From positions 1 to 44,328 of the forward strand of contig JALONM010000048.1 in the NCBI GenBank assembly GCA_025454925.1: a DNA stretch of 44,328 nucleotides. The letters run 5' to 3'. Below the pieces are notes generated by a model. It was not told the origin of the DNA and did no database searches. It saw nothing but the letters and a program-made list of their open reading frames with translations. A program made the translations under genes and the position numbers. Origin of the DNA: Cytophagaceae bacterium (lineage in GTDB: Bacteria > Bacteroidota > Bacteroidia > Cytophagales > Cytophagaceae). Positions 17,017-42,328 of the stretch are shown piece by piece (position 1 is the stretch's first letter; each line of letters starts with the position of its first letter).

Positions 17017-18636
17017 ATGAAATGGAATTCGGTAAAGACATTCCTGCGCTCTGTTGCAACGGTTGAAATGTCCGGCATTTGGTGGTGTTCGGTGACCATT
17101 ATTTCTGTGCTCGCTTTTCTGCTTTCCTTGCATTCTGAAATCGGTGATTTTGGAAATTATTATTTCGGGAGTAGTGTATTTTTAGATGGAAATTTTTCGA
17201 TCCTGAACTATCAGGGATTATCTCATTTCAATCAACAGATCAGGTCTTATTATCAAGGTATATATTTCGAAAATTACGCTCCCGTTCCTCCATTTAGTGT
17301 TTTGTTTTATCTGCCTTTGACGTTATTGCCTTTGTTTTGGTCTAAGTTTTTATTTAATCTTTTTGGTTGGCTGCTGTGCGGTATTAGTGTACACTATTTT
17401 ATTAAAGTAAATAATCTTCATGTTCAGAAAGAACATCTGTTTATTCCTCTTGTTTTGTTTTATCCCATCTATCACACCTTCGCACAAGGACAATCTTATT
17501 TTATTATTCTTGCCATCATCCTCTTTTCTTTTTGTTTTGAAAGGCAAGGACGATGGATAGTTTCCTCGGCTTTGCTTTCGATAGCAATTTCTTTGAAAAT
17601 CTTTCCAGCGTTTTTTCTTCTTTATTTTTTAATTGGGAAAAAATGGAAATCCTTGTTTGCGGTAGGAGTAAGTATGACATTGCTACATCTTCCATTGGTG
17701 CCCATGTTGGGTCTTGATACGCTGCTACATTATGTTGGAGAAATACTACCCCGGCTGGCATCTAACGATGTAGTAGGGGCATTTTATTATTCAAATCAAA
17801 GTTTCCAGACCTTGCTCCTCCAGTTGTTTTATCCGGAATCCATGCACAATCCAAATCCTTTGTTTTCGATGCCCTGGCTGGTTCCACTGGGAGAGGCAAT
17901 TTTGGTTTCGTTCGTATTCGCTAGGTTGTGGCTTGAACGCAAAAAAGGAGAGGTTTCTTTTTTTTCTTTCTTGTCTTTGGGAATGATTCTTTGCAGTCGA
18001 TATAACCCCATTTATGCTCAGCTGCTGCTATTTCCATTTTTATGGATGATTCCATTACTATTCGAATCCGGCAAGGTTCGATGGATTCTGTGGGTAACCA
18101 TAGCACTTGCCTTTTGGAGTGCCGTGTTCATGCATGGCAGGCTTCCTTTTTTTCTTCGTTTTTTTCGTATCGAAGCATTGATCTTTGTTTTTCTGTTTAG
18201 TGCATATCATCGTTCCCTTCCATCCATTCGATTGCTAAGTTTTGTTTTTGTTTTTATGGCCTTCATCCGCGTGCTTGGATTTACTTACGAAAGCCCTGTA
18301 TACGCCAGCCATCAAGCATCAAAAGGTGTTCTGTATCATTATGAAGTGCAGCAGGATTCATTGGTGGTATATGGCACGATGGGAAATGTAGATACCCGGG
18401 AAAGTTTTCCCATTTCAAAAAAAGTATTTGAAGATTCTGCCCTCACAATAAAAGGCTCAACGCTCTGCTACGGCGATCAGGTGTTGGCAAAAGGAAAGTA
18501 TACAATACTCAAGCCACTTCGATGGGGAGAGGATTCCGTAATCGTTATGAGCGATCTGCACCAGGGCTTGTATATGTATAAATTAATGCTTATTCCATTG
18601 GCAGCGAGTAAGCGCCGAAATTTTTCGGATGATTGA
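17017..18636 (+). CDS. GT87-like polyprenyl-sugar membrane glycosyltransferase (DUF2029 type)
   Basis: The 539-residue protein has about ten membrane segments. The first loop carries GDFGNYYFGS (43-52) with acidic and polar residues where GT-C enzymes keep their catalytic Asp, and NYAPVPPFSVL (86-96), the typical 'Y.P..P.' signature after the first large loop. An HTFAQGQSYF segment follows near 153-162. GT87 enzymes are polyprenyl-phosphate-sugar-dependent mannosyl- or arabinosyltransferases acting on the outer face of the inner membrane. The soluble C-terminal part (about 430-539) is unrecognised. It sits 15 bases before the CxxCH gene and is probably co-transcribed with it. The acceptor is unknown. 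Confidence 0.65.
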   Translation: MKWNSVKTFLRSVATVEMSGIWWCSVTIISVLAFLLSLHSEIGDFGNYYFGSSVFLDGNFSILNYQGLSHFNQQIRSYYQGIYFENYAPVPPFSVLFYLPLTLLPLFWSKFLFNLFGWLLCGISVHYFIKVNNLHVQKEHLFIPLVLFYPIYHTFAQGQSYFIILAIILFSFCFERQGRWIVSSALLSIAISLKIFPAFFLLYFLIGKKWKSLFAVGVSMTLLHLPLVPMLGLDTLLHYVGEILPRLASNDVVGAFYYSNQSFQTLLLQLFYPESMHNPNPLFSMPWLVPLGEAILVSFVFARLWLERKKGEVSFFSFLSLGMILCSRYNPIYAQLLLFPFLWMIPLLFESGKVRWILWVTIALAFWSAVFMHGRLPFFLRFFRIEALIFVFLFSAYHRSLPSIRLLSFVFVFMAFIRVLGFTYESPVYASHQASKGVLYHYEVQQDSLVVYGTMGNVDTRESFPISKKVFEDSALTIKGSTLCYGDQVLAKGKYTILKPLRWGEDSVIVMSDLHQGLYMYKLMLIPLAASKRRNFSDD

Positions 18637-18651
18637 TGCTAGAATTCACAT

Positions 18652-19824
18652 ATGAAAACAAAAAAAGGCCTTATTGCTTCGTTGTATCTGCTGATCTTTA
18701 TCGTTGTGATGATCAGTTCTACCTCACTTCAGTACGCCGAGCCGAAGTCTGAATCCGAAATACTTTGTCTTCGCTGGTATCCTTCGCATCCTGCCGAAAC
18801 GTTTCAGGATGTGCGCACCGGTTTTTTATGGTCGCTTTCGTATCTAGGTGCTCAACTTCCCCAAGGCTCCTTTGACAATGCCGTGCATCGCACCGACAGT
18901 GTTCATTGGGTTGTAGATTTTTCTAAACTGGGATTTTCAGAGGAGGGCTTAGGGGCATTAAAGGAACTCATCGCCCAGTTGAAGCAATCAGAAGAATATA
19001 AAGTGAAAAAAGCGATTGATATGTCAAGATTTTTAGTGCTAGCGCTGCACAGTCCCTGGCACTATTATAAGATTACCGGCGTTTTTCCCAATTACAAGTC
19101 CTTTGAACAGCATTATAAACTCGAGGCTGGAAATATTTTTGGAATAACCAATTCCAGTGTAGGTAAAACGCATCGCTTGCTTCGTATGGGTGCCGATACT
19201 ACAAGAATCAATCAAGTGGCGTTTTCTGTATCGGAAGGGAAGGGGAATTTATTTCAACAAAATTTCAAGCCCTCTGAGCATGAAGTTTTTGATATTATGA
19301 AAAATGGCCAATTGCGTTTTGCCGTTTACGATCATCGAGGGCAGCTGGCTTCTGCAGCGTCCTCAGAGTACTCGCTGGCTGGAAAACCTTCCAAGTGCAT
19401 GTGGTGTCATGAAATCGTTATTCAGACTTTATATTCAGAAAATACGGAAGTGCCTGGTACGCTCTCCAATGCACAGTTCGAAAATCTTGTTCATAAGCTG
19501 CAGGAAAAGCTTTATCACTATCGTGCAGGATTGTCATCGGAAATTGATTTTGAAAAGAAACAGGATCATACCTTTGCGGAGTTGTTGTATATAGGATTTA
19601 TGGAACCTTCCAGGTACCGGATTTCGCAAGAGATGGATCATCAACAACGTTTGTTGAATAAGGTGATGTCGCTCCCTACGCATACGCATGAAGAATTTCC
19701 TAAGTTTGGTACATTGTACGAACGCAAGGCAATAGATAAAATTCTTCCTTACACTACATTAAAAGTTCCTGATCAAATTCGAGAGGGAGGTGGTTTTGAG
19801 CCAAATTATTTAAAACGTAAATGA
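18652..19824 (+). CDS. Secreted protein with a single CxxCH haem-type motif
   Basis: The 390-residue protein has an N-terminal hydrophobic segment (about 7-26) that is a signal peptide or anchor. The body is unrecognised but contains one CMWCH motif (Cys249, Cys252, His253), the covalent haem-binding pattern of c-type cytochromes. Several His and Met residues around it (for example HDHR, MDHQQ) could give the second ligand. It is much longer than a typical monohaem cytochrome domain, and no second CxxCH is present. It lies 15 bases downstream of the GT87-like gene. Whether it really binds haem is not known; the motif could also be a zinc site. Confidence 0.55.
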   Translation: MKTKKGLIASLYLLIFIVVMISSTSLQYAEPKSESEILCLRWYPSHPAETFQDVRTGFLWSLSYLGAQLPQGSFDNAVHRTDSVHWVVDFSKLGFSEEGLGALKELIAQLKQSEEYKVKKAIDMSRFLVLALHSPWHYYKITGVFPNYKSFEQHYKLEAGNIFGITNSSVGKTHRLLRMGADTTRINQVAFSVSEGKGNLFQQNFKPSEHEVFDIMKNGQLRFAVYDHRGQLASAASSEYSLAGKPSKCMWCHEIVIQTLYSENTEVPGTLSNAQFENLVHKLQEKLYHYRAGLSSEIDFEKKQDHTFAELLYIGFMEPSRYRISQEMDHQQRLLNKVMSLPTHTHEEFPKFGTLYERKAIDKILPYTTLKVPDQIREGGGFEPNYLKRK

Positions 19825-20062
19825 GGGTAAGAATTGTAAGGATTCGGCACTTTTTACAAAATGGCATCTTCAAATGGCGCAAAGCATGTATATCGATTTT
19901 GCTTGGGGCGAGGTCTCTCTATTTTTCTTCAAACTGAATAAAATATTTACTACATTGAAACGGTAATCTGCGCAATCAAAATGATTGGGTGGTAGGTGAA
20001 GAGACGACATGCTTTTTATGGTACCCAAAGAATCTTAAAGGTCTGACAAAAGGAACGGTAGA

Positions 20063-21574
20063 ATGATAATGAAACAAACGTCGGTACTTTTGTTTAATCC
20101 CCGAGCAACAAATTATAATCCCCGCATTCCGAATAGCATTTTGCAAGTTGCCGCCAGTATTGACGGTCAATATAAATGGTATGCAGTAGATGGGAATTTG
20201 GAGTCGGATCCATGGAGTAAGATAGAGCATTATTTGTCTCAGGGCGATGTCCGTTATGTAGGATTTACGGTAATGCCTGGGCCACAATTAAAGCAGGCCA
20301 TTCCGTATGCAAAAAAAATACGCGAGCAATTTCCTGGAGTAGTAATGATTTGGGGAGGATATTTTGCTTCCAATCAATACCAGGTTTGCTTGAATTCCGG
20401 TTGGGTTGATTTCATTATTAATGGACCCGGGGATTACAGTTTTCCAGCGCTCCTGCAAGTACTAGAAAATGGTGGTTCTCCCGAGGCAATTCGGAATTTG
20501 ATTTTCAAGAAGGGTGAAACAATTGTCAAAACAGCCAAAGCCGATCTGGCTGACATGGATGTCTTACCTCCATTGCCGTATGAAAAGTGGAATACCTTTT
20601 ATCCGCTCTCACGTGTTTTGGCGAAAACTTTTTTAGGAAATAAAACCATCGCCTATCACAGCAGCTTTGGTTGTCCATTCACCTGTTCGTTTTGTGCCGT
20701 AGTACCTATTTACGAAGCGCGCTGGAAAGGCAGGTCTGCAGATGGTATTTTTAAGGATGTAGAAATGTTGCATCGGGAATTTGGGGGTAATGCACTCGAG
20801 TTTCATGATAATAATTTTTTCGTTTCCGAAAAAAGGGCTGTTGCATTTGCCCGCTTGATTCGCCCTTTGCAGATGCGCTGGTGGGGTGAAGCTCGGATTG
20901 ATACCATGCATAAATATTCGGACGAATCTTTGCGTTTGCTTAGAGAGTCGGGGTGTGTTATGATTTTTTTTGGTGCCGAAACAGGTAACGATGACGTACT
21001 CAAAGCTATGGATAAGGGCGGCACACAGACTGCCGATCAAATACTTTCCTTTGCCGAGCGATTGAAACGTTTTGATATTATTCCGGAATATTCTTTTGTG
21101 TTAGGATTGCCTGCTAAAACAGAAAAGGAAGTGTGGACACAAATCAATGCCGATATTCGATTTATAAAAAAGATTAAAAGCCTGAATGCTTCTACTGAAA
21201 TTATCCTGTATTTGTACAGCCCGGTTCCGGTAGAGGGTTCCGAATTATTTGAACAAGTAAAGGCTGCCGGCTTTAAGTTTCCTCAACTGCTGGAGGACTG
21301 GATAAGCCCAGCCTGGGAACGCTTTGATCTTAGGAAAAATCCTTTAACACCCTGGTTGCAGCCCTACATGGTAGACCAGATTAAGAATTTCGAAACGGTT
21401 TTGAATGCGTATTATCCCAGCTCTTCCGATATTCGCTTGAAACCCTGGATGAAAAAAGTATTACGCATGGTAAGTTATTGGAGATACCATACAGGCATTT
21501 ATCAGTATCCCTGGGAGTTAAAGCTGTTATTAAAAGTATGGAAATACAGACAACCGGAAAAAGAAGGATTTTAA
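20063..21574 (+). CDS. B12-binding-type radical SAM protein (rSAM1)
   Basis: The 503-residue protein has an N-terminal Rossmann-like region (about 1-160, with VGFTVMPGP and VMIWGGYFAS), as in cobalamin-binding radical SAM enzymes. The radical SAM core follows with the [4Fe-4S] motif GCPFTCSFC (Cys204, Cys208, Cys211) and a GAETGNDDVLKAMDKG segment typical of the BchE-like branch. A C-terminal helical tail follows. The classical DxHxxG cobalamin motif is absent, as in many members, so cofactor use is inferred. It could start at ATG 20063 or 20069. Its 3' end overlaps the next methyltransferase gene by 37 bases, implying translational coupling. The substrate is unknown. The family includes methylases, cyclases and P-methyltransferases. 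Confidence 0.85.
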   Translation: MIMKQTSVLLFNPRATNYNPRIPNSILQVAASIDGQYKWYAVDGNLESDPWSKIEHYLSQGDVRYVGFTVMPGPQLKQAIPYAKKIREQFPGVVMIWGGYFASNQYQVCLNSGWVDFIINGPGDYSFPALLQVLENGGSPEAIRNLIFKKGETIVKTAKADLADMDVLPPLPYEKWNTFYPLSRVLAKTFLGNKTIAYHSSFGCPFTCSFCAVVPIYEARWKGRSADGIFKDVEMLHREFGGNALEFHDNNFFVSEKRAVAFARLIRPLQMRWWGEARIDTMHKYSDESLRLLRESGCVMIFFGAETGNDDVLKAMDKGGTQTADQILSFAERLKRFDIIPEYSFVLGLPAKTEKEVWTQINADIRFIKKIKSLNASTEIILYLYSPVPVEGSELFEQVKAAGFKFPQLLEDWISPAWERFDLRKNPLTPWLQPYMVDQIKNFETVLNAYYPSSSDIRLKPWMKKVLRMVSYWRYHTGIYQYPWELKLLLKVWKYRQPEKEGF

Positions 21575-22245
21575 ACTGGAAAAAGAAAATCACCGACTGG
21601 TGCCTAAAACCCTTGGTGAAGATTTACTTGTCTCGTCAAACCAGTTTTCGATACCAACAACTTAGGATGCGTATTTTTCCGGGCGTTTTTCATCCTCAAT
21701 TTTTCTTTAGTTCTACCTTTCTCGCGGATTTTATTTCTGAATTACCCTTGCAAGGAAAGTCCTTCTGTGAGCCCTGTTCAGGAAGTGGTTTGTTGGCCAT
21801 ACTCGCCAGGAAAAGGGGGGCCAAGGTTGTTTGTTTTGATATTTCAGAGCGTGCCGTTGCCAATATTTCAGAGAATGCCAGGCTCAATGATATTCAAGTG
21901 GGAGAGGCTGGATTTTTACTGTATTTGTCGGATGGTTTTTCCCAAGTTCCTTCCCAATCGTTCGATTATTTGGTAATTAATCCTCCGTATTTCTTTCACG
22001 ATCCGCAACGGGAGGACCAGTATGCTTGGTATGCGGGTTCTGAGGGACAATTTTTTCATCGTTTTTTCTCTGCTTTACATTCGTATACGCATCTTCATAG
22101 TCAATGCTTTATGGTATTGGCAGATAATTGTGAACTTGAACGCATACAAGGGATTGCGGCTGAATGTGGTTGGAAGTTGGATTTGGTGCGAGAGAAAAGA
22201 ATATGGTGGGAAATGAATTATATATTCCACCTGAGGAAGGCTTGA
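21538..22245 (+). CDS. Class I methyltransferase, HemK/PrmC-like
   Basis: The 235-residue protein has EPCSGSG (78-84) as motif I, CFDISERAV as motif II (acidic ribose-binding Asp) and VINPPYF (146-152), the NPPY motif of methyltransferases acting on amide or amino nitrogen, such as PrmC/HemK and N6-adenine enzymes. It differs from PrmC in lacking the N-terminal helical domain of about 80 residues. ATG 21538 was chosen over the upstream in-frame ATG at 21478, because the extra residues lie deep in the rSAM1 frame. It overlaps rSAM1 by 37 bases, so the two products likely act together. It converges on the minus-strand operon, with 14 bases between stops. Confidence 0.7.
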   Translation: MEIQTTGKRRILNWKKKITDWCLKPLVKIYLSRQTSFRYQQLRMRIFPGVFHPQFFFSSTFLADFISELPLQGKSFCEPCSGSGLLAILARKRGAKVVCFDISERAVANISENARLNDIQVGEAGFLLYLSDGFSQVPSQSFDYLVINPPYFFHDPQREDQYAWYAGSEGQFFHRFFSALHSYTHLHSQCFMVLADNCELERIQGIAAECGWKLDLVREKRIWWEMNYIFHLRKA

Positions 22246-22259
22246 ATGCCTTGTGCGCC

Positions 22260-23642
22260 CTAATACATCCGCATCCACCATTTGGAAGCCTGGTACTTCC
22301 ACCAGTGTTTGAATACATTTTTGTTCCAGCTTTTTTGCCGTAGTAAGAGTTGATGATATTTTACTTCGTTTACCACGCGTCGCACCGCTATGTCATAAAA
22401 TTTTCTCGGATACGTTCTCGGAAAATCCGTATCTCTATCGGAACCTTCATGCCAAGGTTTTCGAAGGATTAGTTTTTCTTTTACTTGCTCAAAAAGGCCT
22501 GTGCCTTTTATGGGATAGGCAACGGTAATAGTAAAATAATCAGGGTCTGATTTTTTTAAATGTTCAATGGTAGCTTCAATGTCGGCTTTTGTTTCACCAG
22601 GATATCCCAGCATGATGAATGTGCCGGCACTAATGCCAATTGCCTGACTGTGTTGTATGGCCCATTGCACTTGATTCGCTTGCACTCTTCTGTCCATGGC
22701 ATCTAAGATCCGTTGGGAACCAGATTCCGCACCGATCCAAATCCGGTGACAACCACTTTCTTTGAGCCGTTGAAGGATATTCTCGGTAAGCCGGTCTGCC
22801 CGGGTAATGCATTCAAACCGAATGATTAAATTTTCTTCTTTAATTAAAGCAGCAAATTCTTCAATCCACTTGTGGCTAACGGTAAAAACATCGTCAACAA
22901 ACCAAAAGGTATTGCATTGGTATCGATGCACGAGGTGTTTAAGTTCTCCAATCACCGATGATGGCGATCTTCTGCGATAGCTCATGCCGTATACCGCTGT
23001 GCTGCACCATTGGCAGGTGTAGGGGCAGCCTCGCTGTGTGCTTACCGAGATGCTTGCTTCGCCATGTCTTCGTTGCCAGGCCTCCAGGTATTGCTCCAGT
23101 TGTATCGCTTCCCGGTCGGGTACTGGCAACTCGTTTAAGTCTTTTAATTTGCCGCGCTCCTCGGTGAATACGGTTTCTCCCTCCGCATTCACATACGCAA
23201 TTCCTTGACATGTGGACCAATCTTCGTTGGTCTCGATCAGGCTGCTGAGTTCCAACATCGTTTCTTCACCTTCGCCTACTACGAGCACATTCGCCCCATG
23301 AGCTAAATAATTTGCAGCATTGTACCGAACATCAGGGCCGCCTAAAATTACGGTGCAAGAGGCTAGCTCCGCTTGAGTGCGCATCCATGAAATGTTTTCT
23401 AATACCGTCTTCCGCGTCATTAGATTAACATAGAACGCAAGGATTCTGGGGGAACGATGTAGTATTTCTTTTCTCCATTGGTCTTTGCTTATAAAGGTCG
23501 TGTCAATTACCAATACCTGCTTTCCCTTTTCTTTTAGAAAGGCAGATAGGTAAAGAATGCCAAGAGGAGGGTAAGGGCGCATGATTTCCTGTTCCTTCGG
23601 GTCTTCACTTAAAAAATATCCGTGTGTGAGTACAATGCTCAT
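22260..23642 (-). CDS. B12-binding-type radical SAM protein (rSAM3)
   Basis: The 460-residue protein has a B12-binding-like N-terminal Rossmann region (about 1-160, with VILGGPDVRYNA and VVGEGEE) and the radical SAM motif GCPYTCQWC (Cys206, Cys210, Cys213), followed by GAESGSQRILDAMDRR and a helical tail. Its N-terminus (THGYFLSEDPKEQ..PYPPLGIL) closely resembles that of rSAM2, so the two are paralogues flanking a methyltransferase. The frame has a TTG at 23657, but the ATG at 23642 overlaps the stop of the preceding gene as ATGA and was chosen. It is the last gene of the operon. The product is unknown. Confidence 0.85.
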   Translation of the reverse strand: MSIVLTHGYFLSEDPKEQEIMRPYPPLGILYLSAFLKEKGKQVLVIDTTFISKDQWRKEILHRSPRILAFYVNLMTRKTVLENISWMRTQAELASCTVILGGPDVRYNAANYLAHGANVLVVGEGEETMLELSSLIETNEDWSTCQGIAYVNAEGETVFTEERGKLKDLNELPVPDREAIQLEQYLEAWQRRHGEASISVSTQRGCPYTCQWCSTAVYGMSYRRRSPSSVIGELKHLVHRYQCNTFWFVDDVFTVSHKWIEEFAALIKEENLIIRFECITRADRLTENILQRLKESGCHRIWIGAESGSQRILDAMDRRVQANQVQWAIQHSQAIGISAGTFIMLGYPGETKADIEATIEHLKKSDPDYFTITVAYPIKGTGLFEQVKEKLILRKPWHEGSDRDTDFPRTYPRKFYDIAVRRVVNEVKYHQLLLRQKSWNKNVFKHWWKYQASKWWMRMY

Positions 23643-24430
23643 TTTTTTTCCAGGCAAATAATGTAGTGATCTGCGAAGTTGGAAAAGAGACTGCTTGATC
23701 CTAGCAGTTTTTCCAGAAGGATTGCCATCGATTTTAGAATGCGATTTTTTTCCACTCGATTCGAAAGATAAGAAGGCGGGATGCCAATACCAATGGGTTT
23801 ATGCCATCTAACGTTAAAATATGGATTTGCCATTTGCGCCACTTCAGAAGGACTATAATACCAGGTTGGTACCAGGCTTCCATTCACATGCACCAAACAT
23901 TCCTTGTTGCGATTTCTACGTCCAATTTTAGAAAAATCAGCACGGAACAGAAAATATAGGTTCTCAATCCAGCACTTCTTGCTCATGAGCACCCCAATTA
24001 ATTTCCCGTTTTTTTGCATCAGCCGTTGACTTTCGCTGAATAGCTTTTTCCAATCGGAAGGTTCTATGCAATTCAAGCCTCCGAAATTGGAAAAAATTAG
24101 GTCGTAACGGTCCTCCATCTGGTGCAGGTTTTTGATATCTAAAACCTGAAAGTCTACTTGTAGTAAATTTTTATTAGCCTTTATCCTGGCTTGTTCCAGC
24201 ATGGCATTCGATATGTCAGTGGCAACTACACGGTGTCCTTTTTGAGTAAAATATATAGCATCCATTCCAGTTCCGCAATTCAATTCCAGAATAGAAAGGG
24301 GGGAGGAGGCAAGTATTTTTTTCTTCTCAAGCCAATCATACACTCGTTTACGTTGTTCTCTTCCAACAAAAGTATGGGAGAACTCCTGGTCGTAGGAAAT
24401 GGCCGCTGAATCAAAGAGTGCCTGTGCCAT
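23639..24430 (-). CDS. Class I SAM-dependent methyltransferase
   Basis: The 263-residue protein shows motif I LELNCGTGMD (48-57), the acidic motif II TDIS (71-74) and the DFQVLDIKNL segment. These mark a Rossmann-fold small-molecule-type methyltransferase of the UbiE/BioC-like group. The C-terminal half is unrecognised. It overlaps rSAM2 by 20 bases at its start and rSAM3 by 4 bases (ATGA) at its end, so it is translationally coupled to both. Being sandwiched between two radical SAM paralogues suggests a step in the same pathway; the substrate is unknown. Confidence 0.8.
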   Translation of the reverse strand: MAQALFDSAAISYDQEFSHTFVGREQRKRVYDWLEKKKILASSPLSILELNCGTGMDAIYFTQKGHRVVATDISNAMLEQARIKANKNLLQVDFQVLDIKNLHQMEDRYDLIFSNFGGLNCIEPSDWKKLFSESQRLMQKNGKLIGVLMSKKCWIENLYFLFRADFSKIGRRNRNKECLVHVNGSLVPTWYYSPSEVAQMANPYFNVRWHKPIGIGIPPSYLSNRVEKNRILKSMAILLEKLLGSSSLFSNFADHYIICLEKK

Positions 24431-25865
24431 GCTTACGAAGTTTGTTTAGTTTTTTTTGTTCCATCCAGGCTGCAGGCTTGAAGTAAATAAACGATAAGTC
24501 CTTCATCTTTGGGAATGCAGGTGTTAAGATCTTTTTCCGCATTCTTTCCAGCGATTGTTTTGCCCGGAATGATTTATGGATGAACCGGTGAAGTGTTTTG
24601 TAAAAACTTGGTGAAAAAGTACTTTGATACATGAGTAGTAACTCGTCGGAATCTTTCCAATGTGTTTTTTCTTTTAATTGGGATTTCACCCGGTCGTAAA
24701 ATACGGTTCCCGGCAATGGGTAACTGACCGATACTCCAATGTCGTGTGGTTGTAGTTCCTCTACCATGCGCAAGGTAGCTTGGATGTCCTCCCATTCTTC
24801 CCCCGGATATCCAACTTGTAAAAAGAAGCATGGTTTAATATCGTGCTTTCTCATGCCCAGTGTTGCTTCATGTATTTGAGCGACGGTAATGCCTTTGTCC
24901 ATGGCGTCTAGTACTTTTTGGGAACCGGATTCTGCACCAATCCATATTTCATCGGCTCCGCTTTGTGCTAAGGCAAACAAAGTGTCTTCTTTCGTGAGCA
25001 GATCGGCTCTTGATTGGATTTTATACCGGAACCGAATGCCCGATGCCGATAGTACTTGATGAAACTCTTGCACCCAATTTGGTTTCAATCCGAAGATATC
25101 GTCGCAAAACCAGATGTGATCAAACGCAAACAAACGATGCATCCATATCAGTTCATCGAGTACATGCTTCGGGGAACGTGAATTGTAGCGATTTCCATAA
25201 ATAGGTTTCGCACACCAATTGCACTTGTACGGGCACCCTCGAGTGGTGGCCATGTTCAATGAAAAGTACCCCTGTTTTTTCCAGGCATCTTTATAGGGCT
25301 GAATGGAAAGTAAGTCCCAGGCGGCCATTGGCAATTCGTCCAGGTTCTGTCGTACCGGCCTTTTGGCTGTAGCTATTACCTGACCGTTTTGTTTGGTTGC
25401 CAGTCCCAGTATGGCTGTGGTGTTATCTTGCTTTTGAAGTGCAGATAAAAGTTCCAGCAACGTATCTTCACTTTCTCCTAATAATACATAATCGAAATGT
25501 CCGGAAAGATAAAGTTCAAGTTGGTCCGTAGAGTCACTGCTGGATATAATGGAGGTAATTCCTTGGGAGGCAGCTATGGCCGCCATTTGTAAGGCGGCCT
25601 CGCGCATATTGGTAAGGCACATTTTCGTCAGGTAATTGAACCCGTCGTCGTATACAACCAGAATTTCAGGTTTTAAACTCAATACGTGAGATTGAAAGGA
25701 GCCGGTGTTTTGATCGAAACTTACATCGTAAAAATGCACCTCGTGTCCTTCGTTGCGCATACAAGCCGCTGCCAGCAAAGTGGCCAGCGGAGGGTAGGGT
25801 TTGGAGCCCGCTAATTGCTTCGGGTCAAAATGTAAAAAGTAACTATGTGTGATGAGTATTTTCAT
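24411..25865 (-). CDS. B12-binding-type radical SAM protein (rSAM2)
   Basis: The 484-residue protein has an N-terminal Rossmann-like region (about 1-160) opening with THSYFLHFDPKQ..PYPPLATL, the radical SAM motif GCPYKCNWC (Cys211, Cys215, Cys218), GAESGSQKVLDAMDKG and a helical C-terminal tail. It resembles rSAM3 along its length and rSAM1 more distantly. A GTG at 25871 is in frame, but ATG 25865 gives a normal start for the family and was chosen. It overlaps the nucleotidyltransferase gene by 23 bases and the methyltransferase gene by 20. The canonical DxHxxG motif is not seen, so cobalamin binding rests on family resemblance. Confidence 0.85.
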   Translation of the reverse strand: MKILITHSYFLHFDPKQLAGSKPYPPLATLLAAACMRNEGHEVHFYDVSFDQNTGSFQSHVLSLKPEILVVYDDGFNYLTKMCLTNMREAALQMAAIAASQGITSIISSSDSTDQLELYLSGHFDYVLLGESEDTLLELLSALQKQDNTTAILGLATKQNGQVIATAKRPVRQNLDELPMAAWDLLSIQPYKDAWKKQGYFSLNMATTRGCPYKCNWCAKPIYGNRYNSRSPKHVLDELIWMHRLFAFDHIWFCDDIFGLKPNWVQEFHQVLSASGIRFRYKIQSRADLLTKEDTLFALAQSGADEIWIGAESGSQKVLDAMDKGITVAQIHEATLGMRKHDIKPCFFLQVGYPGEEWEDIQATLRMVEELQPHDIGVSVSYPLPGTVFYDRVKSQLKEKTHWKDSDELLLMYQSTFSPSFYKTLHRFIHKSFRAKQSLERMRKKILTPAFPKMKDLSFIYFKPAAWMEQKKLNKLRKHGTGTL

Positions 25866-26817
25866 GTTCACGTATCAGGATGTAACGTTCCCAAAGGTTA
25901 TGTATATGCAGATCCAACTGCTTAAGAACCTGCTGCTGGAAGTCGTTTGGATGATGTTTGGAAATGCCTTCCGTGCTGCGCATGGTGCGTTCAAATTTTT
26001 CTGAATCAAAATGGTTGAATTTTTGTTTCCAGCGGGTTAAGGTTCTTACATGAAACCATTTTTCAATCAGGCTTCCTGCATGCGTGGCAAGTATTTTTTC
26101 TACAAGTCCTTTCCAGAATAGTTTTTCCGGAACCTTAACAGTTACCGGCAATGCTATCGGCGCCGGGCTCGTGGCATGCGTCTGTGCCCATCGGTTCGAG
26201 GAATGAAAGTCGCTAAAGTAATGTGCCGCATCGTATACTGGCAGTAAATGCGATACCTCAATGGCAGTGAAAATATTTTTGTCGCGGATTTCTAAATGAT
26301 TCAGGTCAACGAAATAATTCAGACAAAAGAATTTTCTGGAATTTAGAAGAAATATCTTTTTATACAAGATTAGTAAACTTCGGCATGTCCAAAGTCTTTT
26401 TCGTTCGGTAAGTATGAAAAAATCAATGTCGCCATCTTCTTTGATTACTCCTTTGGATAAAGAGCCAGATACTGCGATGCCCCTCACGAAAGGGAAGCGC
26501 GCAATACGTTTTACCGTTGAGGGCAATTGCTGCCAAAATTGGTGGGCTCTCTGTTCTGCCTCCATTCTTTCTTGTACAAGCACTTGTATGGTTGGGTCGG
26601 GAGAATAATATCCCTGGTATTCAAATAGAAGTCCGTGAATCAGGAAAGGTTTTAATAATGGCAGTAGTTGAGAGTCAGGTATTGCACAAAGCCTCTCCAG
26701 GTCTTTCAGATGCAAAGGATGTTTAAATAGATTAAAGTAGCAAAGCAAGGTAATACACTTTTTTTCTTGCTCTCGCAATGAATTTTGAACAGGAGTAGAG
26801 GTGTGGTTATTAGTCAT
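25843..26817 (-). CDS. Winged-helix plus minimal nucleotidyltransferase protein
   Basis: The 324-residue protein has an N-terminal winged-helix-like segment (about 18-75) and then a polymerase-beta-type nucleotidyltransferase core: SGSLSKG (117-123) and the metal-binding acidic pair DGDID (Asp130, Asp132). Later residues form helices including the FFCLNYFVDLNHLEI segment. Such proteins range from MNT-type antitoxins to nucleotide transfer enzymes acting on small molecules or RNA. The gene opens the operon and overlaps rSAM2 by 23 bases, so an enzymatic or regulatory role in the same pathway is likely. No HEPN partner is present, which argues against a toxin-antitoxin system. Confidence 0.7.
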   Translation of the reverse strand: MTNNHTSTPVQNSLREQEKKCITLLCYFNLFKHPLHLKDLERLCAIPDSQLLPLLKPFLIHGLLFEYQGYYSPDPTIQVLVQERMEAEQRAHQFWQQLPSTVKRIARFPFVRGIAVSGSLSKGVIKEDGDIDFFILTERKRLWTCRSLLILYKKIFLLNSRKFFCLNYFVDLNHLEIRDKNIFTAIEVSHLLPVYDAAHYFSDFHSSNRWAQTHATSPAPIALPVTVKVPEKLFWKGLVEKILATHAGSLIEKWFHVRTLTRWKQKFNHFDSEKFERTMRSTEGISKHHPNDFQQQVLKQLDLHIHNLWERYILIREHENTHHT

Positions 26818-26986
26818 TCGAATAGGATGTAAACAAGCAAGGTATGAGTTACAATCCCTTCCTGGAGAATGATTGGTTCCTCAATACTTTTTGTTTGAAT
26901 TCAAAAGTTTTATTCAATATACAAAATGCGATTCATTGAAGGTAAAGATATTTATCCAATGGTTTCTTTTTCCGGATATGCTAGTT

Positions 26987-27016
26987 GTTGTAATTCGGAT
27001 TTATTTATTACCTTTG
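26987..27016 (+). promoter_or_regulatory. Promoter of the cobalamin riboswitch and btuB operon
   Basis: GTTG at 26987-26990, an 18-base spacer, and TACCTTTG at 27009-27016 match the Bacteroidota promoter (exact TAnnTTTG). Transcription would start near 27022, just before the riboswitch aptamer. Confidence 0.7.
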
Positions 27017-27020
27017 TGTT

Positions 27021-27200
27021 GTCCGGTTTTTTCGAGAGAAGAATTAAAAGGGAATGTGGTGAAAAACCACAACTGTACCCGCAACTGTAAGTTCCGGTAA
27101 AGCTTTGTCAAGGCCACTATCTGAGCCAACTACGATGGGAAGGCGACAAAGAGGGAACGAGTCAGGAGACCTGCCGAACGGAAAACCATAAGGGCTTTCG
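27021..27200 (+). promoter_or_regulatory. Cobalamin riboswitch
   Basis: The leader shows the conserved blocks of the cobalamin (AdoCbl-type) aptamer in order: GGGAA with GGTG (27050-27061), CCCGCAACTGTAAG (27078-27091), GGCCACTATCTGAGCC (about 27112-27127), GGGAAGGC (about 27137-27144) and the B12 box AGTCAGGAGACCTGCC (27160-27175). Boundaries are approximate. It would reduce btuB expression when cobalamin is present. The expression platform between 27200 and the start codon is not clear; no poly-T terminator is visible, so control is likely at translation. Confidence 0.92.
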
Positions 27201-27260
27201 GGAAGAAAAGTCATGGGTTCAGGAGGTTCATCCTTTTGTTATTCATTTCCCATAGCTCCT

Positions 27261-27290
27261 ATGATTAAACGAATGTTTGATCTGGGATGA
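27261..27290 (+). CDS. Possible 9-codon leader ORF before btuB
   Basis: ATG 27261 opens a nine-codon frame (MIKRMFDLG) in the riboswitch leader. Its TGA (27288-27290) overlaps the btuB ATG (27287-27289) as ATGA, the same overlap used between btuB and btuG. It could couple btuB translation to the leader. Such a short frame can occur by chance. Confidence 0.3.
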   Translation: MIKRMFDLG

Positions 27291-29191
27291 GAACTATTTT
27301 TGTTTGTATGCTAATGGGCATATCAATGAGGCTGCTGTTTGCTCAGCAAGATACATTGGTGATGCCCGAGGTGGAGGTTCGTGCCGACGTTCCTGTGCTG
27401 TATGATGTATCGTATACCGATGTGTTGGACAGTACTGGTCGTCATTATGCCGATGCATCCGAATTGCTGAGTATGCAAAGCCTGGCCATGGTAAAGAATT
27501 ATGGCCCATCCGGAATTTCGTCTCTTTCTATCCGTGGATCTTCACCTTCTCAATCACAGGTTGTTTGGAATGGCTTCGTATTGCAGAGTTTTCAAAATGG
27601 TCAATCTGATATTTCATTGTTGCCCTTGTCCCTGATGGATCAGGTGCGGCTTCAATACGGAGGATGTGGTGCTCTCTGGGGTAACGGAGGAATCGGAGGA
27701 TCGTTGCATTTAAATGCTTTGGCTCGCTTTTCACCAGGTATTCATGTTCAAGCAAGTCAGCAATATGGTTCGTTTGGACGCTGGTATTCATCGCTCAAGG
27801 CTCAATATGCTACACGTCGCATCTCGATAGGACTGCGTGCTGTTCGCCAAGAGGAAGAAAATAATTTTCCTTATTATAACGAACAGATTTATCCCAAGAC
27901 CTGGCAGCGCCAGCGCCATGCCGCCCTGGCCTTGATGGGCATGATGCCAGAGTTTCATGTACGGCTTTCCCGTAATTCCCGCATAAGCATTTGGTATTGG
28001 AAGCAATGGAGCGATCGGCAAATTGCACCGGTAATGTCTATACCTAACTCTTTCGCCGAACAAGTAGATTGGTCTGACCGCCTGGCAGCGGAATGGATCC
28101 TTCGGAAGTTTAGATTTAGAACGGGGTATTTTTCTGAACGTATTCTTTTTCAGGATACCACTTTTAATATAAATGCCTTCAGTGGCTTTCATGCTTGGGT
28201 AAATGAATGCGACTACACAGGTCAAGCAAATAAATACTGGCAATATTCCTTAGGCCTGCATTCTACCATCTCTACTGGGTTTGCGGATAATTATGGACAA
28301 GAGACTCCTTCCAGAAATCAATGGGCGGCTTTCTGGACAAACAAGGTTGTGTACAAACGACTGGAACTAAATGCTAATGTGCGTCAGGAATGGATGATAA
28401 CGCCGGAGCGTTGGAGAAGTGTTCCATTTATGCCTTCTGTTTCCTTGCAATATCAAGTAAGTAAACGAATGGATGCCTTGGTGAAAGTAAACAGACATTT
28501 TCGTTGGCCTACCATGAATGATTTATTCTGGAAACCCGGAGGGAATGAATCCTTGCGTCCGGAACATGGATGGGGACAGGAATTCGGGTTGGATTGGCAT
28601 CCCTGTTGCGAAAATCCCAAACTCCGTTCCTGGAATATTTCACTGCGAGTGTACAGTCGTTACATACATGATTGGATCATTTGGAAACCATCCAATTCGT
28701 ATTGGACTCCAGTAAATTTGCATTCAGTATGGTCAAGAGGGGGTGAGCTTAGAAGTTTTTGGAAACTTCCGATTCCAGGTAAAGTCAAGTTTATGCTACG
28801 GCATGGGTATGCCATTACGTATTCTACTCAGGAAAAAACAGATCGGTCGAATGCGAATGAATTGCACAAGCAACTCATCTATGTGCCCCCATATTCAATG
28901 CAAATGGGCTTGCAATGTAATTATAAAGGATGGAGCCTGGAGAGCGCTAATGCCTGGATGAGTTGGCGATATACCGATGCCGATAATAAGCATTATTTGG
29001 AAGGATATTTTCTTGCTGACATTTATGTAAGCAAAGAAATTCCAATAAAAGATTTTTCTCTTGAATGGTCTTTCAAGATTCAAAATATTTTCAATAAACA
29101 ATATCAGGTCCTGGAAGGTCGCGCGATGCCTGGTAGAAGTCTGTTGTTGGGAATGAACATGCAACTAAATCGAAAAAGAAAAACGAAATGA
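27287..29191 (+). CDS. btuB: TonB-dependent vitamin B12 receptor, BtuB-like
   Basis: The 634-residue protein has a signal peptide (about 1-19), then a plug domain (about 25-140, with SGISSLSIRGSSPSQSQVVW and QYGGCGALWGNGGIGG) and a long beta-barrel of alternating aromatic strands. TonB-dependent receptors bring scarce large nutrients across the outer membrane; the cobalamin riboswitch immediately upstream identifies the substrate as B12. It is shorter than many such receptors but complete, with a plug-to-barrel order like BtuB. Its stop overlaps the btuG-like start by 4 bases, forming a two-gene operon controlled by B12. Confidence 0.85.
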   Translation: MRTIFVCMLMGISMRLLFAQQDTLVMPEVEVRADVPVLYDVSYTDVLDSTGRHYADASELLSMQSLAMVKNYGPSGISSLSIRGSSPSQSQVVWNGFVLQSFQNGQSDISLLPLSLMDQVRLQYGGCGALWGNGGIGGSLHLNALARFSPGIHVQASQQYGSFGRWYSSLKAQYATRRISIGLRAVRQEEENNFPYYNEQIYPKTWQRQRHAALALMGMMPEFHVRLSRNSRISIWYWKQWSDRQIAPVMSIPNSFAEQVDWSDRLAAEWILRKFRFRTGYFSERILFQDTTFNINAFSGFHAWVNECDYTGQANKYWQYSLGLHSTISTGFADNYGQETPSRNQWAAFWTNKVVYKRLELNANVRQEWMITPERWRSVPFMPSVSLQYQVSKRMDALVKVNRHFRWPTMNDLFWKPGGNESLRPEHGWGQEFGLDWHPCCENPKLRSWNISLRVYSRYIHDWIIWKPSNSYWTPVNLHSVWSRGGELRSFWKLPIPGKVKFMLRHGYAITYSTQEKTDRSNANELHKQLIYVPPYSMQMGLQCNYKGWSLESANAWMSWRYTDADNKHYLEGYFLADIYVSKEIPIKDFSLEWSFKIQNIFNKQYQVLEGRAMPGRSLLLGMNMQLNRKRKTK

Positions 29192-30219
29192 AAAAATTAA
29201 TCTGTATTACCATGTTGCTGCTACTGGCAACTGCTTGTAAAAAGCCTGTGAAACCTGAAGAAAAGATAGATCCAACATTTGAATCAACTGTGTTGGTGCT
29301 CAACGAAGGTAGTTTTACTAAAGGAAATGCCGATGTATCGGCCTACAACGCTACTACCGGTCAGCTATATAGTAATTACTTTAGTGCTCAGAATGGAAGA
29401 TTTGCCGGAGATGTATTACAGCACGGCTTCTTTTATGGAGATCAATTGTATCTGATTTTGAATAATAGTAATCGTATTGAAGTCTGTCACAAGAATACCC
29501 TTCTTACCAGTACTGTTATTAATGGACTGACATTGCCAAGAAATGGTGTAGTATTTCAGGATAAGGCTTATGTGACAGAAACCGTAAGTTACAGTGGCAA
29601 AGGTAGAGTCTCTGTCTTGAATTTGTCTGCTAATTCCCTCGGAGCCCAGACCACGGTAGGGATAAAACCGGAAGGAATCATAGAAGTGAACGGGAAATTA
29701 TATGTAGCCAACTCTGGCGATACTACTGTGATGGTTTTGAATCCCACTACTTTAGCAATCACAGATACTATTATTGTAAAAGATGGGCCGAATAGTTTTG
29801 TAAAATCCTCCGATGGAAATTTATGGGTATTGTGCAGCGGAAAAGATGATCCTAATGACCGTAAAGCCGGGGCTTTAATTAAGATCAATGTCAGTAACAA
29901 TCAAATTATAAAGACGCTCCCGTTTACTGAGATTTTGACCAGTGCGTCCAACCTTTGTGCTAATAGTTCGGGAACAACCTTGTATTATCGTTATAAAGAT
30001 CAAGTGCGTACTCAGGAAGAAGCAGCTGCTACGCTGTCAGGTAATGTGCTGGTGGATAGAAAGTTTTATGGAATTGGCGTAGAGCCTCAATCGGGTACTT
30101 TGTACGCAAGTACCTATGGGTTCAGTTCTGCGGAATACGCCATCCGCTATACTCCACAAGGTCAAGTCATTGATTCCTTTCAGGTGGGTATCGGTCCGAA
30201 CGGATTTTTGTTTAAATAA
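29188..30219 (+). CDS. BtuG-like beta-propeller lipoprotein (YncE/DUF5074 type)
   Basis: The 343-residue protein has a lipoprotein signal (MKKLICITMLLLLATAC, lipobox Cys17) and a body of repeated beta-propeller blades: EGSFTKGNADVSAYN, LYVANSGDTTVMVLN, NLWVLCSGKDD, TLYASTYGFSSAEYAI. In Bacteroides, BtuG is a surface-exposed propeller lipoprotein next to BtuB that binds B12 very tightly and passes it to the receptor. The same placement here, with a 4-base overlap with btuB under a cobalamin riboswitch, supports that role. This is inferred from position and fold, not from conserved B12-contact residues. A long hairpin terminator follows. Confidence 0.75.
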   Translation: MKKLICITMLLLLATACKKPVKPEEKIDPTFESTVLVLNEGSFTKGNADVSAYNATTGQLYSNYFSAQNGRFAGDVLQHGFFYGDQLYLILNNSNRIEVCHKNTLLTSTVINGLTLPRNGVVFQDKAYVTETVSYSGKGRVSVLNLSANSLGAQTTVGIKPEGIIEVNGKLYVANSGDTTVMVLNPTTLAITDTIIVKDGPNSFVKSSDGNLWVLCSGKDDPNDRKAGALIKINVSNNQIIKTLPFTEILTSASNLCANSSGTTLYYRYKDQVRTQEEAAATLSGNVLVDRKFYGIGVEPQSGTLYASTYGFSSAEYAIRYTPQGQVIDSFQVGIGPNGFLFK

Positions 30220-31875: not shown

Positions 31876-34050
31876 ATGACCACAACTCGTACTGTTTGGC
31901 CTATTCTTCTTGTGCTATTTTGGCAAATCTCCAATGCTCAAATAAGTGAATTTATTGTAGTGGATCAATTTGGCTATACAACCGGTGCAAATAAGGTAGC
32001 CGTTATCCGGGATCCGCAGACAGGATATGATGCTTCCTTGTCTTTTACGCCAGGATCTACTTACGCACTCGTCTCTGACCAAACCAATACGCCTGTTTTT
32101 ACCGCTTCTATTAGCGCATGGAACGGAGGAGCTACAGATGCCAGTTCCGGAGATAGGGCATGGTGGTTTGATTTTTCTTCGGTTACCACAGAGGGGAGTT
32201 ATTATGTAAAAGACCTTACCAATAATGCTAGAAGTGCGACTTTTGTGATTGCCGATACGGTATATAAAAATGTGTTGAAAGCGTCCCTACGCATGTTGTA
32301 TTATCAGCGCTCGGGTTATACAAAACTGGTTGCGCATGCAGGCAATGGCTACGCCCATGCAGCGTCGCATGTGGGGCCTTTGCAGGATAAAAATGCACGG
32401 TTATTTAATAATAAAGTGCTTGCTACCGAAAAAGATTTGTATGGAGGTTGGTACGATGCCGGGGATTACAATCAATATACACCCTGGACGGCCAATTATG
32501 TGGTGACTTTGTTGCTTGCTTACCTGGAGAGACCAGAGGCTTTTACCGATGATTACATGATACCAGAATCGGGGAATGGTGTACCCGATGTGTTGGATGA
32601 AGTAAAATGGGCGCTTGACTGGTTGCTTCGCATGAGTCAATCGGATGGTTCCTCACTTTGTGTATTAGGAAGGGCCAGTGGTAGTCCTCCTAGTTCTGCC
32701 ACCGGAGAATCTTTGTATGGTCCTGCCACCACGAATGCAACCTTGCGTTCTGCCAGTGCATTTGCCCTTGGAGCCAAAGTGTTTAAGCAGCTTGGTCCAT
32801 CCTATGCCAGTTATGCAGCTACGCTGGAAAGTAAAGCTATAGCCGCCTGGGACTGGGCGGTGGCAAATCCATCGGTTACCTTTGCGAATAACTCTTCCAG
32901 TAATGGCTCTCAAGGGTTGGCTGCAGGTAATCAGGAAACAGATAATTTAGGCAGAAACACAGCTAAGATTGGAGCAGCCACTTTTTTGTATGATCTAACT
33001 GGAGGAGCCACTTACAAATCGTTTGTGGAAAGCAATTATACCAGTATGCCGCTTTTTGCCTGGAGTAATTATGCGAGTCAATATTTTTTCGAACAACAAG
33101 ATTATTTAATGTATTATATCTCGTTGCCGAATGTAACAACGAATGTTGTGAACGCCATCAGGAACGCTTCCAATACTGCATTTAATAAGTCTGGAGATTT
33201 TTTCTCTTCATTCCATTCAGATCCATACAGAGCATTTGTAAAAGAATATAACTGGGGGTCGAATCAATACAAATCGGTATATGGGAATGTATATACGTTA
33301 TTCAAACATTATGATTACAGCCCAGCCAATAATGAAACCTATGATAAACAAGGGGAGGAATATCTGCATTACATTCACGGTGTTAATCCCCTTTCTTTGT
33401 GTTACCTCACGAATATGAGTTCATATGGTGCAGAAAAAAGCATCAATGAAATTTATCATACCTGGTTTTCAGATGGCAGCTCTCAATGGGATAGAGTGGG
33501 AGTATCTACCTACGGTCCGGCACCAGGTTTTCTGGCAGGCGGTCCCAACAGCTTTTACGATTACGACGACTGTTGCCCGAACAATTGTGGTTCTACCCAG
33601 AATAATGCCTTATGTACCTCGGAGAGTATAAGTCCGCCAAAGGGACAACCCGTTCAGAAATCGTATAAAGATTTTAATACCAGTTGGCCACTTAATTCCT
33701 GGGAAATCACAGAGCCAAGTTTGGGGTATCAAACGGCTTACATTCGATTGCTTTCAAAATATACGCATCATAGCAATGCTTCCACTTCTACTCAAGAGGC
33801 CTTGACCAAGGGAAATTCAGTCTACATTTTTCCTAATCCAAGCCAAGGTTGGCTGTATACTCAATTGCCATCATTTGCTCCTGGAAAATATTCGCTTAAA
33901 GTTGTTTCCGCTCAGGGCAGAGTAGTGCAGGAGCAGCTTCTGGAACAGCAGGAAATCCAGGTAGGAAGCTTGCCTGACGGCATGTACCTGTTGATTTTCT
34001 CCGATGGAAAAGAGCGTTATTCAGATACATTGATTCTGAATAAAAAATAA
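31876..34050 (+). CDS. Secreted GH9 cellulase with type IX secretion C-terminal domain
   Basis: The 724-residue protein has a signal peptide (about 1-21), an Ig-like CelD_N-type domain (about 22-125), a GH9 catalytic domain (about 130-632) and a C-terminal domain (about 640-724) with VYIFPNPSQG and GMYLLIFSDGKE, typical of type IX sorting. The GH9 signature YGGWYDAGDYNQY (189-201) holds the catalytic base Asp (Asp194/Asp197). IHGVNPLSLCYLTNMSSYG is the conserved His/Asn segment, and WEITEPSLGY contains the likely acid Glu613. GH9 enzymes hydrolyse beta-1,4-glucans such as cellulose. No other polysaccharide genes are adjacent, so it is a solitary enzyme. Confidence 0.9.
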   Translation: MTTTRTVWPILLVLFWQISNAQISEFIVVDQFGYTTGANKVAVIRDPQTGYDASLSFTPGSTYALVSDQTNTPVFTASISAWNGGATDASSGDRAWWFDFSSVTTEGSYYVKDLTNNARSATFVIADTVYKNVLKASLRMLYYQRSGYTKLVAHAGNGYAHAASHVGPLQDKNARLFNNKVLATEKDLYGGWYDAGDYNQYTPWTANYVVTLLLAYLERPEAFTDDYMIPESGNGVPDVLDEVKWALDWLLRMSQSDGSSLCVLGRASGSPPSSATGESLYGPATTNATLRSASAFALGAKVFKQLGPSYASYAATLESKAIAAWDWAVANPSVTFANNSSSNGSQGLAAGNQETDNLGRNTAKIGAATFLYDLTGGATYKSFVESNYTSMPLFAWSNYASQYFFEQQDYLMYYISLPNVTTNVVNAIRNASNTAFNKSGDFFSSFHSDPYRAFVKEYNWGSNQYKSVYGNVYTLFKHYDYSPANNETYDKQGEEYLHYIHGVNPLSLCYLTNMSSYGAEKSINEIYHTWFSDGSSQWDRVGVSTYGPAPGFLAGGPNSFYDYDDCCPNNCGSTQNNALCTSESISPPKGQPVQKSYKDFNTSWPLNSWEITEPSLGYQTAYIRLLSKYTHHSNASTSTQEALTKGNSVYIFPNPSQGWLYTQLPSFAPGKYSLKVVSAQGRVVQEQLLEQQEIQVGSLPDGMYLLIFSDGKERYSDTLILNKK

Positions 34051-42290: not shown

Positions 42291-42328
42291 CATAAGTGCT
42301 TATAAATCAGGATTGGCCTGTATTCCTT

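Follow-up and report, generated by a model that had tools for sequence, protein, structure and literature searches.

The window analyzed here is the whole stretch of 44,328 nucleotides at positions 1 to 44,328 of contig JALONM010000048.1, from a Cytophagaceae bacterium (assembly GCA_025454925.1), and it carries three B12-type radical S-adenosylmethionine (SAM) enzymes, named rSAM1, rSAM2, and rSAM3, next to a B12 uptake operon with genes of the btuB and btuG types. Our favored reading, which we consider fairly probable in its two parts taken together, is that positions 17017 to 26817 are a compact copy of a mostly Bacteroidota cassette that modifies a cell-surface glycan, or a lipid-linked or nucleotide-activated sugar precursor, and that the btuB/btuG operon is the cell's ordinary riboswitch-controlled B12 importer, in a position peculiar to this genome among those examined. 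A more specific version is tentative and, as a whole, rather doubtful: it would be an undescribed Bacteroidota glycan-tailoring system in which a winged-helix nucleotidyltransferase gives a nucleotide handle and up to three cobalamin radical SAM enzymes C-methylate the sugar, making the surface B12-dependent, with the cassette lying beside the importer in this genome.

The original prediction had the enzymes down as a possible modification pathway, and the conserved set does look like a biosynthetic cassette. The marker for collecting loci is rSAM2 (24411 to 25871, minus strand; PF04055, 67.7 bits). The set has 92 loci: the window, 11 from 291 genomes sampled from the order, and the best 80 of at least 556 relatives from a scan of contigs. 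With the window's own genome counted, twelve of the 291 genomes have an rSAM2 match of E = 1e-60 or lower; the contig-scan relatives were collected at E = 1e-3 and are not all orthologues. A length of 19 kb or more is reached by 58 of the 91 other loci, and the remainder are shorter. Most are labelled Bacteroidota, with a few metagenome bins labelled Ignavibacteria, Kapaibacterium, or Verrucomicrobia, and the named carriers include Mucilaginibacter lappiensis, Niastella soli, Ohtaekwangia koreensis, and Puia dinghuensis. The open reading frames (ORFs) of the loci were clustered and given Pfam labels from one representative per cluster. While rSAM2 is present in 92 by selection, its usual partner MT11, a class I SAM-dependent methyltransferase (23639 to 24430, minus strand; PF13649, 70.8 bits), is found in 84, the nucleotidyltransferase (25843 to 26817, minus strand) in 77, and rSAM1 (20063 to 21574, plus strand; PF04055, 49.7 bits) in 64. 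Further clusters are a radical SAM-SPASM gene (c4, 50 loci), methyltransferases c5 (49) and c10 (32), an amidohydrolase (c8, 33), the MTS-type methyltransferase that adjoins rSAM1 (21478 to 22245, plus strand, with an ATG at 21538; PF05175, 38.3 bits; 28), and rSAM3 (22260 to 23657, minus strand; PF04055, 86.1 bits; 16).

In these relatives the cassette lives in surface-polysaccharide neighborhoods. Glycosyltransferases (GTs) are represented by clusters GT4 c6 (37 of the 92 loci), GT4 c7 (34), GT2 (32), a DUF1972-type GT (21), and GT4 c15 (21), and polysaccharide functions by Wzy_C (25), Bac_transf (20), PMT_2 (13), polysaccharide deacetylase (13), and the Wzx-type Polysacc_synt (13). GT9, sulfotransferase, and GDSL are also among the Pfam types of the neighbors. 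An ATP-binding cassette (ABC) exporter is found in 21 of 92 loci, with CydD, MsbA, and PglK as its best NCBIfam matches, none above cut-off; for the neighbor clusters in general, no NCBIfam cut-off is reached among the matches listed. Restricting the count to the 49 named loci with full flanks, the Wzy cluster is found in 21, Bac_transf in 14, and the Wzx-type cluster c22 in 11. In a control, GT4 genes are enriched there over their genome density. That control uses 24 loci of our choosing from the 80 named ones, 23 of them searched (L063 was left out), and compares BLAST clusters, with one Pfam-scanned representative each, to a genome-wide count of PF00534, which has 581 matches in the 126.2 Mb of the 23 genomes. 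The three GT4 clusters have 37 members in the 23 loci versus 2.3 expected by chance, an enrichment of about 16-fold over the same genomes, and 18 of the 23 loci have at least 1 such member. A first control, by which 51 of 58 long loci had at least 2 glycan-type ORFs versus 0 of 16 riboswitch loci, was biased because its reference set came from rSAM2 loci, and the genome-density control replaces it.

The importer does not travel with the cassette. The original prediction had uptake placed beside its consumers as their own supply, but the pair of btuB and btuG is found in 0 of the 91 other loci by BLAST with 18 BtuB-like and 17 BtuG-like queries; one weak TonB-receptor match occurs in L127, at 24.6% identity and E = 4e-10. 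A covariance model built on the window's riboswitch and 19 others from these bacteria likewise gives 0 of 91 for the cobalamin riboswitch, while the held-out riboswitch in L044 is recovered at 122 bits. The relatives thus have the radical SAM genes but no btuB/btuG pair, and by the original prediction's own criterion the idea of a dedicated supply does not hold in general. Riboswitch and cassette were also compared across 27 of the 291 genomes, namely the complete set of 12 cassette carriers and 15 cassette-free members of the same family; the family sample has 19 genomes, and the window's genus is represented by the window genome alone. The riboswitch is present in 11 of the 12 versus 15 of the 15. 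Where it shares a contig with rSAM2, the distance is 97 kb (G071) or 2.0 Mb (G022); eight further genomes have the two on different contigs, and no riboswitch was found in G098. The 91 other loci and the riboswitch in cassette-free genomes speak against btuB generally accompanying the cassette, and we reject such a rule. In this one genome the adjacency may bring a local advantage. We infer that one such neighbor is a mild coincidence, because it is one importer among some thousands of genes and about 90 loci were examined. No sign of an assembly artefact is apparent at the junction of cassette and btu genes, where the intergenic DNA appears as a single copy in the assembly and the composition is even across.

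That the neighbor is a B12 uptake operon, as originally predicted, is well indicated by its matches. The riboswitch (27007 to 27192, plus strand) matches RF00174 Cobalamin at 113.6 bits and E = 7.1e-28, with a gathering threshold of 31.5, over model positions 1 to 189 of 189. The assembly, 99.84% complete with 4.52 Mb in 135 contigs, yields no second cobalamin riboswitch. The TonB-dependent receptor that follows (27287 to 29191, plus strand; PF00593 and PF07715) is of the BtuB type, with E = 3.1e-51 and 5.5e-51 to the solved BtuB chains of Protein Data Bank (PDB) IDs 8p97 and 8p98; the NCBIfam BtuB models stay below cut-off for it, TIGR01779 at 44.5 bits (cut-off 599.7) and NF007926 at 35.7 (836). 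Overlapping btuB by 4 bases is a BtuG-type beta-propeller of DUF5074 (29188 to 30219, plus strand; PF16819, 80.6 bits), which scores E = 7.1e-24 against 8p97_B and 1.1e-20 against 3dsm. A BtuB-like receptor is therefore found beside a BtuG beta-propeller under a B12 riboswitch. A pattern TTG-18-TAnnTTTG, which we take to be the Bacteroidota promoter consensus, ends near 27016, by the 5' boundary of the riboswitch, so the btu transcript from this putative promoter would exclude the radical SAM genes. A sigma-70 and terminator scan gave counts at or below the shuffled mean, and its result is not used. Of the five PF02310 (B12-binding domain) matches in the assembly at E = 0.01, three are in the cassette; the remaining two belong to methylmalonyl-CoA mutase and MetH, which need B12 regardless of the cassette. 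The order riboswitch-btuB-btuG is an arrangement reported for Bacteroides (eLife 2018 e37138, PMC6143338; also Nat Commun 2023, PMC10404256), the former giving the name BtuG2 to the solved match of the DUF5074 protein. The window operon is like those loci in its riboswitch, btuB, and adjacent btuG, with no notable difference in the operon itself; its radical SAM neighbor is peculiar to this genome among those examined.

The window thus consists of two convergent gene groups, from a GT87 gene to the MTS gene on the plus strand and from the nucleotidyltransferase to rSAM3 on the minus strand, plus the divergent btu neighbor. The minus-strand order is nucleotidyltransferase, rSAM2, MT11, and rSAM3, with each gene overlapping the next. 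Because riboswitch, btuB, and btuG are on the plus strand and these four genes diverge from them, the riboswitch lies outside their transcript. The ORFs confirm that three radical SAM genes, two methyltransferases, and a nucleotidyltransferase (20063 to 26817) adjoin a riboswitch, btuB, and a btuG-like gene (27007 to 30219), as the original prediction had it. Its ORF coordinates stand too, apart from the ends of rSAM3 at 23657 and rSAM2 at 25871, for which internal ATG codons had been taken at 23642 and 25865.

Pfam Radical_SAM (PF04055) is above cut-off in rSAM1, rSAM2, and rSAM3, and the [4Fe-4S] motif CxxxCxxC of that domain is found in 92 of 92 rSAM2, 16 of 16 rSAM3, and 65 of 65 rSAM1 proteins. 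The rSAM3 protein is a paralogue of rSAM2 at 31 to 32% identity, and it passes the PF02310 cut-off of 32.1 with 41.1 bits. DxHxxG is absent from the first 200 residues of every rSAM1, rSAM2, and rSAM3 copy; within the cobalamin radical SAM class, a missing DxHxxG does not exclude cobalamin binding. An AlphaFold model was made for rSAM2, chosen as the weakest of the three on the B12-binding domain, using 34 sequences and with a predicted local distance difference test (pLDDT) score of 82. Over nearly its whole length (residues 1 to 480) the model matches cobalamin radical SAM enzymes, with the top score of Z = 26.4 to AprD4 (414 aligned, 3.3 Å), followed by OxsB at Z = 24.6 (440 aligned, 4.6 Å), MgmA at Z = 24.5 (374 aligned, 4.0 Å), and TsrM at Z = 23.7 (410 aligned, 3.1 Å), and Foldseek agrees. 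The predicted fold of rSAM2 and the Pfam assignment of rSAM3 accordingly agree with the original call of cobalamin-type enzymes, and all three would be candidates for cobalamin use. A segment of 12 residues in rSAM2, 76 to 87, is invariant in 34 of 34 aligned copies and shortened or missing in rSAM3 and rSAM1; residues 79 to 85 have low model confidence, and the segment may be a substrate or cofactor loop. A comparison of rSAM2 with plasmids gives 135 records, none with at least 80% query coverage; the ten listed matches are all less than 31% identical, and eight of them are annotated HpnJ.

The nucleotidyltransferase was modeled from 54 sequences with a pLDDT of 92. The model has a winged helix at about residues 9 to 75, a nucleotidyltransferase (NTase) domain at about 90 to 214, and then C-terminal helices. 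The winged helix resembles the IscR and Z-alpha domains at Z of about 7. For the NTase domain, VIA-align finds the best match in aminoglycoside-modifying ANT(4'), with Z = 8.8 over 112 aligned residues, 2.9 to 3.0 Å, and 16 to 17% identity; unrelated rows go up to 7.7, making for a modest margin. Nothing in the Foldseek list reaches E = 0.001; MNT antitoxins and other NTases rank high in it. Among solved structures there is no sequence relative at E = 0.001, only two chance-level rows. All 54 aligned proteins have G118 and S119 of the GS motif, D130, and D132, and 49 of the 54 have D171. A GS motif with catalytic carboxylates, together with PF01909 at 24.9 bits (cut-off 21), makes this an NTase of the pol-beta type, and conservation of the motif and the catalytic aspartates indicates that the enzyme is probably active.

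Combining these parts, the favored cassette would work as follows. The ANT-like nucleotidyltransferase would place a nucleotide onto a sugar or sugar-like substrate. Next, rSAM2 (with its paralogue rSAM3) and rSAM1 would carry out radical chemistry at unactivated carbons, most likely methylcobalamin C-methylation, and the paired class I methyltransferases would add conventional methyl groups. Membrane glycosyltransferases, here GT87 (17017 to 18636, plus strand; 539 amino acids, about 10 hydrophobic segments; PF09594, 84.2 bits; same cluster in 5 of 92 loci) and elsewhere GT4, GT2, Wzx/Wzy-type proteins, and the ABC exporter, would serve product assembly and export. The order of steps, the sugar substrate, the nucleotide transfer, the C-methylation, and the cobalamin binding are all inferred. 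Fom3, of fosfomycin, is reported to methylate a cytidylylated substrate, a precedent for joining nucleotide transfer to a B12 radical SAM enzyme.

A number of observations weigh against this reading. In PF02310, rSAM1 (28.6 bits) and rSAM2 (19.5) fall below the cut-off. No curated cut-off among the NCBIfam radical SAM families is reached by any of the three enzymes, the best scores being 148 bits for rSAM3 to PhpK (cut-off 600), 132 for rSAM2 to BchE (481), and 107 for rSAM1 to BchE (481). In the fold comparison, MiaB and RimO, which are not cobalamin enzymes, score Z of about 19 to the rSAM2 model, level with TokK at 19.9, and the highest-scoring AprD4 is a dehydratase for which no cobalamin requirement is known, so the fold is no proof of cobalamin use. 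The winged helix of the nucleotidyltransferase would equally fit a regulator. No GT4-cluster member is present in 5 of the 23 control loci. Of the window's 30 larger ORFs, the 27 covered by the Pfam scan include neither a Wzx or Wzy protein nor an initiating sugar transferase, and in this respect the window is not a Wzx/Wzy-type locus. It is a stripped-down copy in which GT87 is the sole glycosyltransferase, the GT2 being far off at 42296, and since GT87 is the only glycan gene inside the window cassette, the glycan link for the window leans on the relatives.

How the parts might otherwise fit together turns on the importer and on the nucleotidyltransferase. We regard it as quite improbable that importer and cassette are one functional unit, with a dedicated supply for three cobalamin-hungry enzymes, even though the one riboswitch found in the assembly is here, three of the five PF02310 matches are no more than about 7 kb from it (two of them below the Pfam cut-off), the intergenic stretch is single copy, and co-regulation by divergent promoters within 190 bp is possible. 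What decides for us is that neither riboswitch nor btuB/btuG pair accompanies rSAM2 in the 91 other loci, that the riboswitch is found with and without the cassette (11 of 12 and 15 of 15 genomes) and elsewhere lies 97 kb, 2.0 Mb, or a contig away, that it is on the opposite strand, and that MetH and methylmalonyl-CoA mutase account for an importer without any cassette. More serious, if still short of probable, is the idea that the winged-helix nucleotidyltransferase is a regulator or a protein-AMPylating switch, as MNT antitoxins are, with the radical SAM enzymes and methyltransferases doing the chemistry; this would be compatible with a glycan product. The IscR-like and Z-alpha-like winged helix points that way, as does the frequency of MNT antitoxins in a Foldseek list where nothing reaches E = 0.001. 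The nucleotidyltransferase gene is also placed past MT11 and on the other strand in 49 of 77 loci, and hence is not always within the rSAM2 transcript. Against the idea, 26 of 77 loci, among them the window, have it immediately upstream of rSAM2 in the same orientation. The ANT(4') match, with its modest margin of Z = 8.8 over at most 7.7, also speaks for the enzyme, and the catalytic aspartates are kept, although that would be true of an AMPylating switch as well.

The product could also be a diffusible natural product or an unusual lipid, made by enzymes comparable to BchE, HpnJ, and PhpK, with the glycosyltransferases being neighbors or sugar-adders. We think this unlikely, if by no means negligible. 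In NCBIfam the three enzymes match BchE, PhpK, and HpnJ best, but with scores far under the curated cut-offs; the radical SAM-SPASM gene (50 of 92 loci) and the amidohydrolase (33 of 92) would suit a small-molecule pathway too, and the window cassette has a single glycosyltransferase. Against such a product stand the recurring Wzy (21), Bac_transf (14), and Wzx-type (11) clusters of the 49 full-flank named loci and the GT4 genes at about 16 times their density in the same genomes at large.

To return to the favored surface-glycan cassette, its parts are each of a known type, while the combination and its breadth are apparently undescribed; no description was found in the titles and abstract starts of open-licence PubMed Central literature. 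With the cobalamin radical SAM enzymes AprD4, OxsB, TsrM, MgmA, CysS, and TokK, rSAM2 shares the whole-length fold and an N-terminal Rossmann domain (Z = 19.9 to 26.4), and all cassette copies share the CxxxCxxC, but the cassette proteins differ in reaching no curated cut-off and rSAM2 in its invariant segment. The nucleotidyltransferase has the NTase core, GS motif, and catalytic aspartates of ANT(4') and MNT proteins, and differs by its N-terminal winged helix and C-terminal helices, with its 16 to 17% identity extending over about 112 residues. Like Wzx/Wzy-type polysaccharide loci, the relatives' cassettes sit among flippase, polymerase, initiating transferase, and GT genes; unlike them, the cassette has up to three B12-type radical SAM genes and an NTase, and the scanned window ORFs have no Wzx/Wzy. 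The family TIGR04295 B12_rSAM_oligo, whose oligosaccharide link we take from its name alone, is matched by the radical SAM enzymes at 40 to 81 bits versus a cut-off of 400. So far, cobalamin radical SAM enzymes have been met chiefly in connection with antibiotics, peptides, and hopanoids. If the reading is true, the surface sugars of many environmental Bacteroidota would carry radical-installed groups and hence depend on vitamin B12, for which the window's genome encodes an importer. The analysis gives a concrete gene set with named carrier strains, and corrects a tempting inference from gene adjacency.

The cassette may be modular. Among the 64 rSAM1 loci, 27 have the MTS-type methyltransferase, 32 have c10, 5 have neither, and 0 have both. 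This exclusion follows the tree in part, and the three independent supported pairs are all opposite with a median p of 0.25, so a methyltransferase swap beside rSAM1 is suggestive only. As a separate observation, 30 of the 32 loci with c10 also carry the amidohydrolase c8. One locus has both rSAM3 (16 loci) and the SPASM gene c4 (50 loci), and independent pairs give no support for a relation between these two. On the question of horizontal transfer, the window rSAM2 groups with Flavobacteriales copies and L083 (97 by the Shimodaira-Hasegawa-like approximate likelihood ratio test) and not with the same-family L023 and L024, but holding the three together is not rejected by the approximately unbiased test (p = 0.115).

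Between GT87 and rSAM1 there is encoded a protein of 390 amino acids (18652 to 19824, plus strand) with an N-terminal hydrophobic segment and one heme c-type motif, CxWCH, with homologues in 5 other rSAM2 loci (L053, L056, L058, L094, and L095). Members are about 370 to 393 residues long, with the motif in 6 of 6, and the N-termini of 5 of the 6 are lipoprotein-like by eye. No Pfam match is found for the family at E = 0.001, and one for the window protein at E = 0.3 only. Possibly this is a surface cytochrome tied to the cassette. Farther out, an ORF of 2446 residues (8604 to 15944) without any Pfam match lies upstream of a phosphoribosyltransferase (ComF-like) gene, and from its size we presume that it could be an SprA-like protein. 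A SAM synthetase (34637 to 35890) is encoded about 8 kb beyond the nucleotidyltransferase gene, and because BLAST finds no homologue in the 91 other loci, its proximity is probably chance. Downstream of the B12 uptake operon, at 31876 to 34050, there is a GH9 cellulase with a Por-secretion (type IX) sorting tail.

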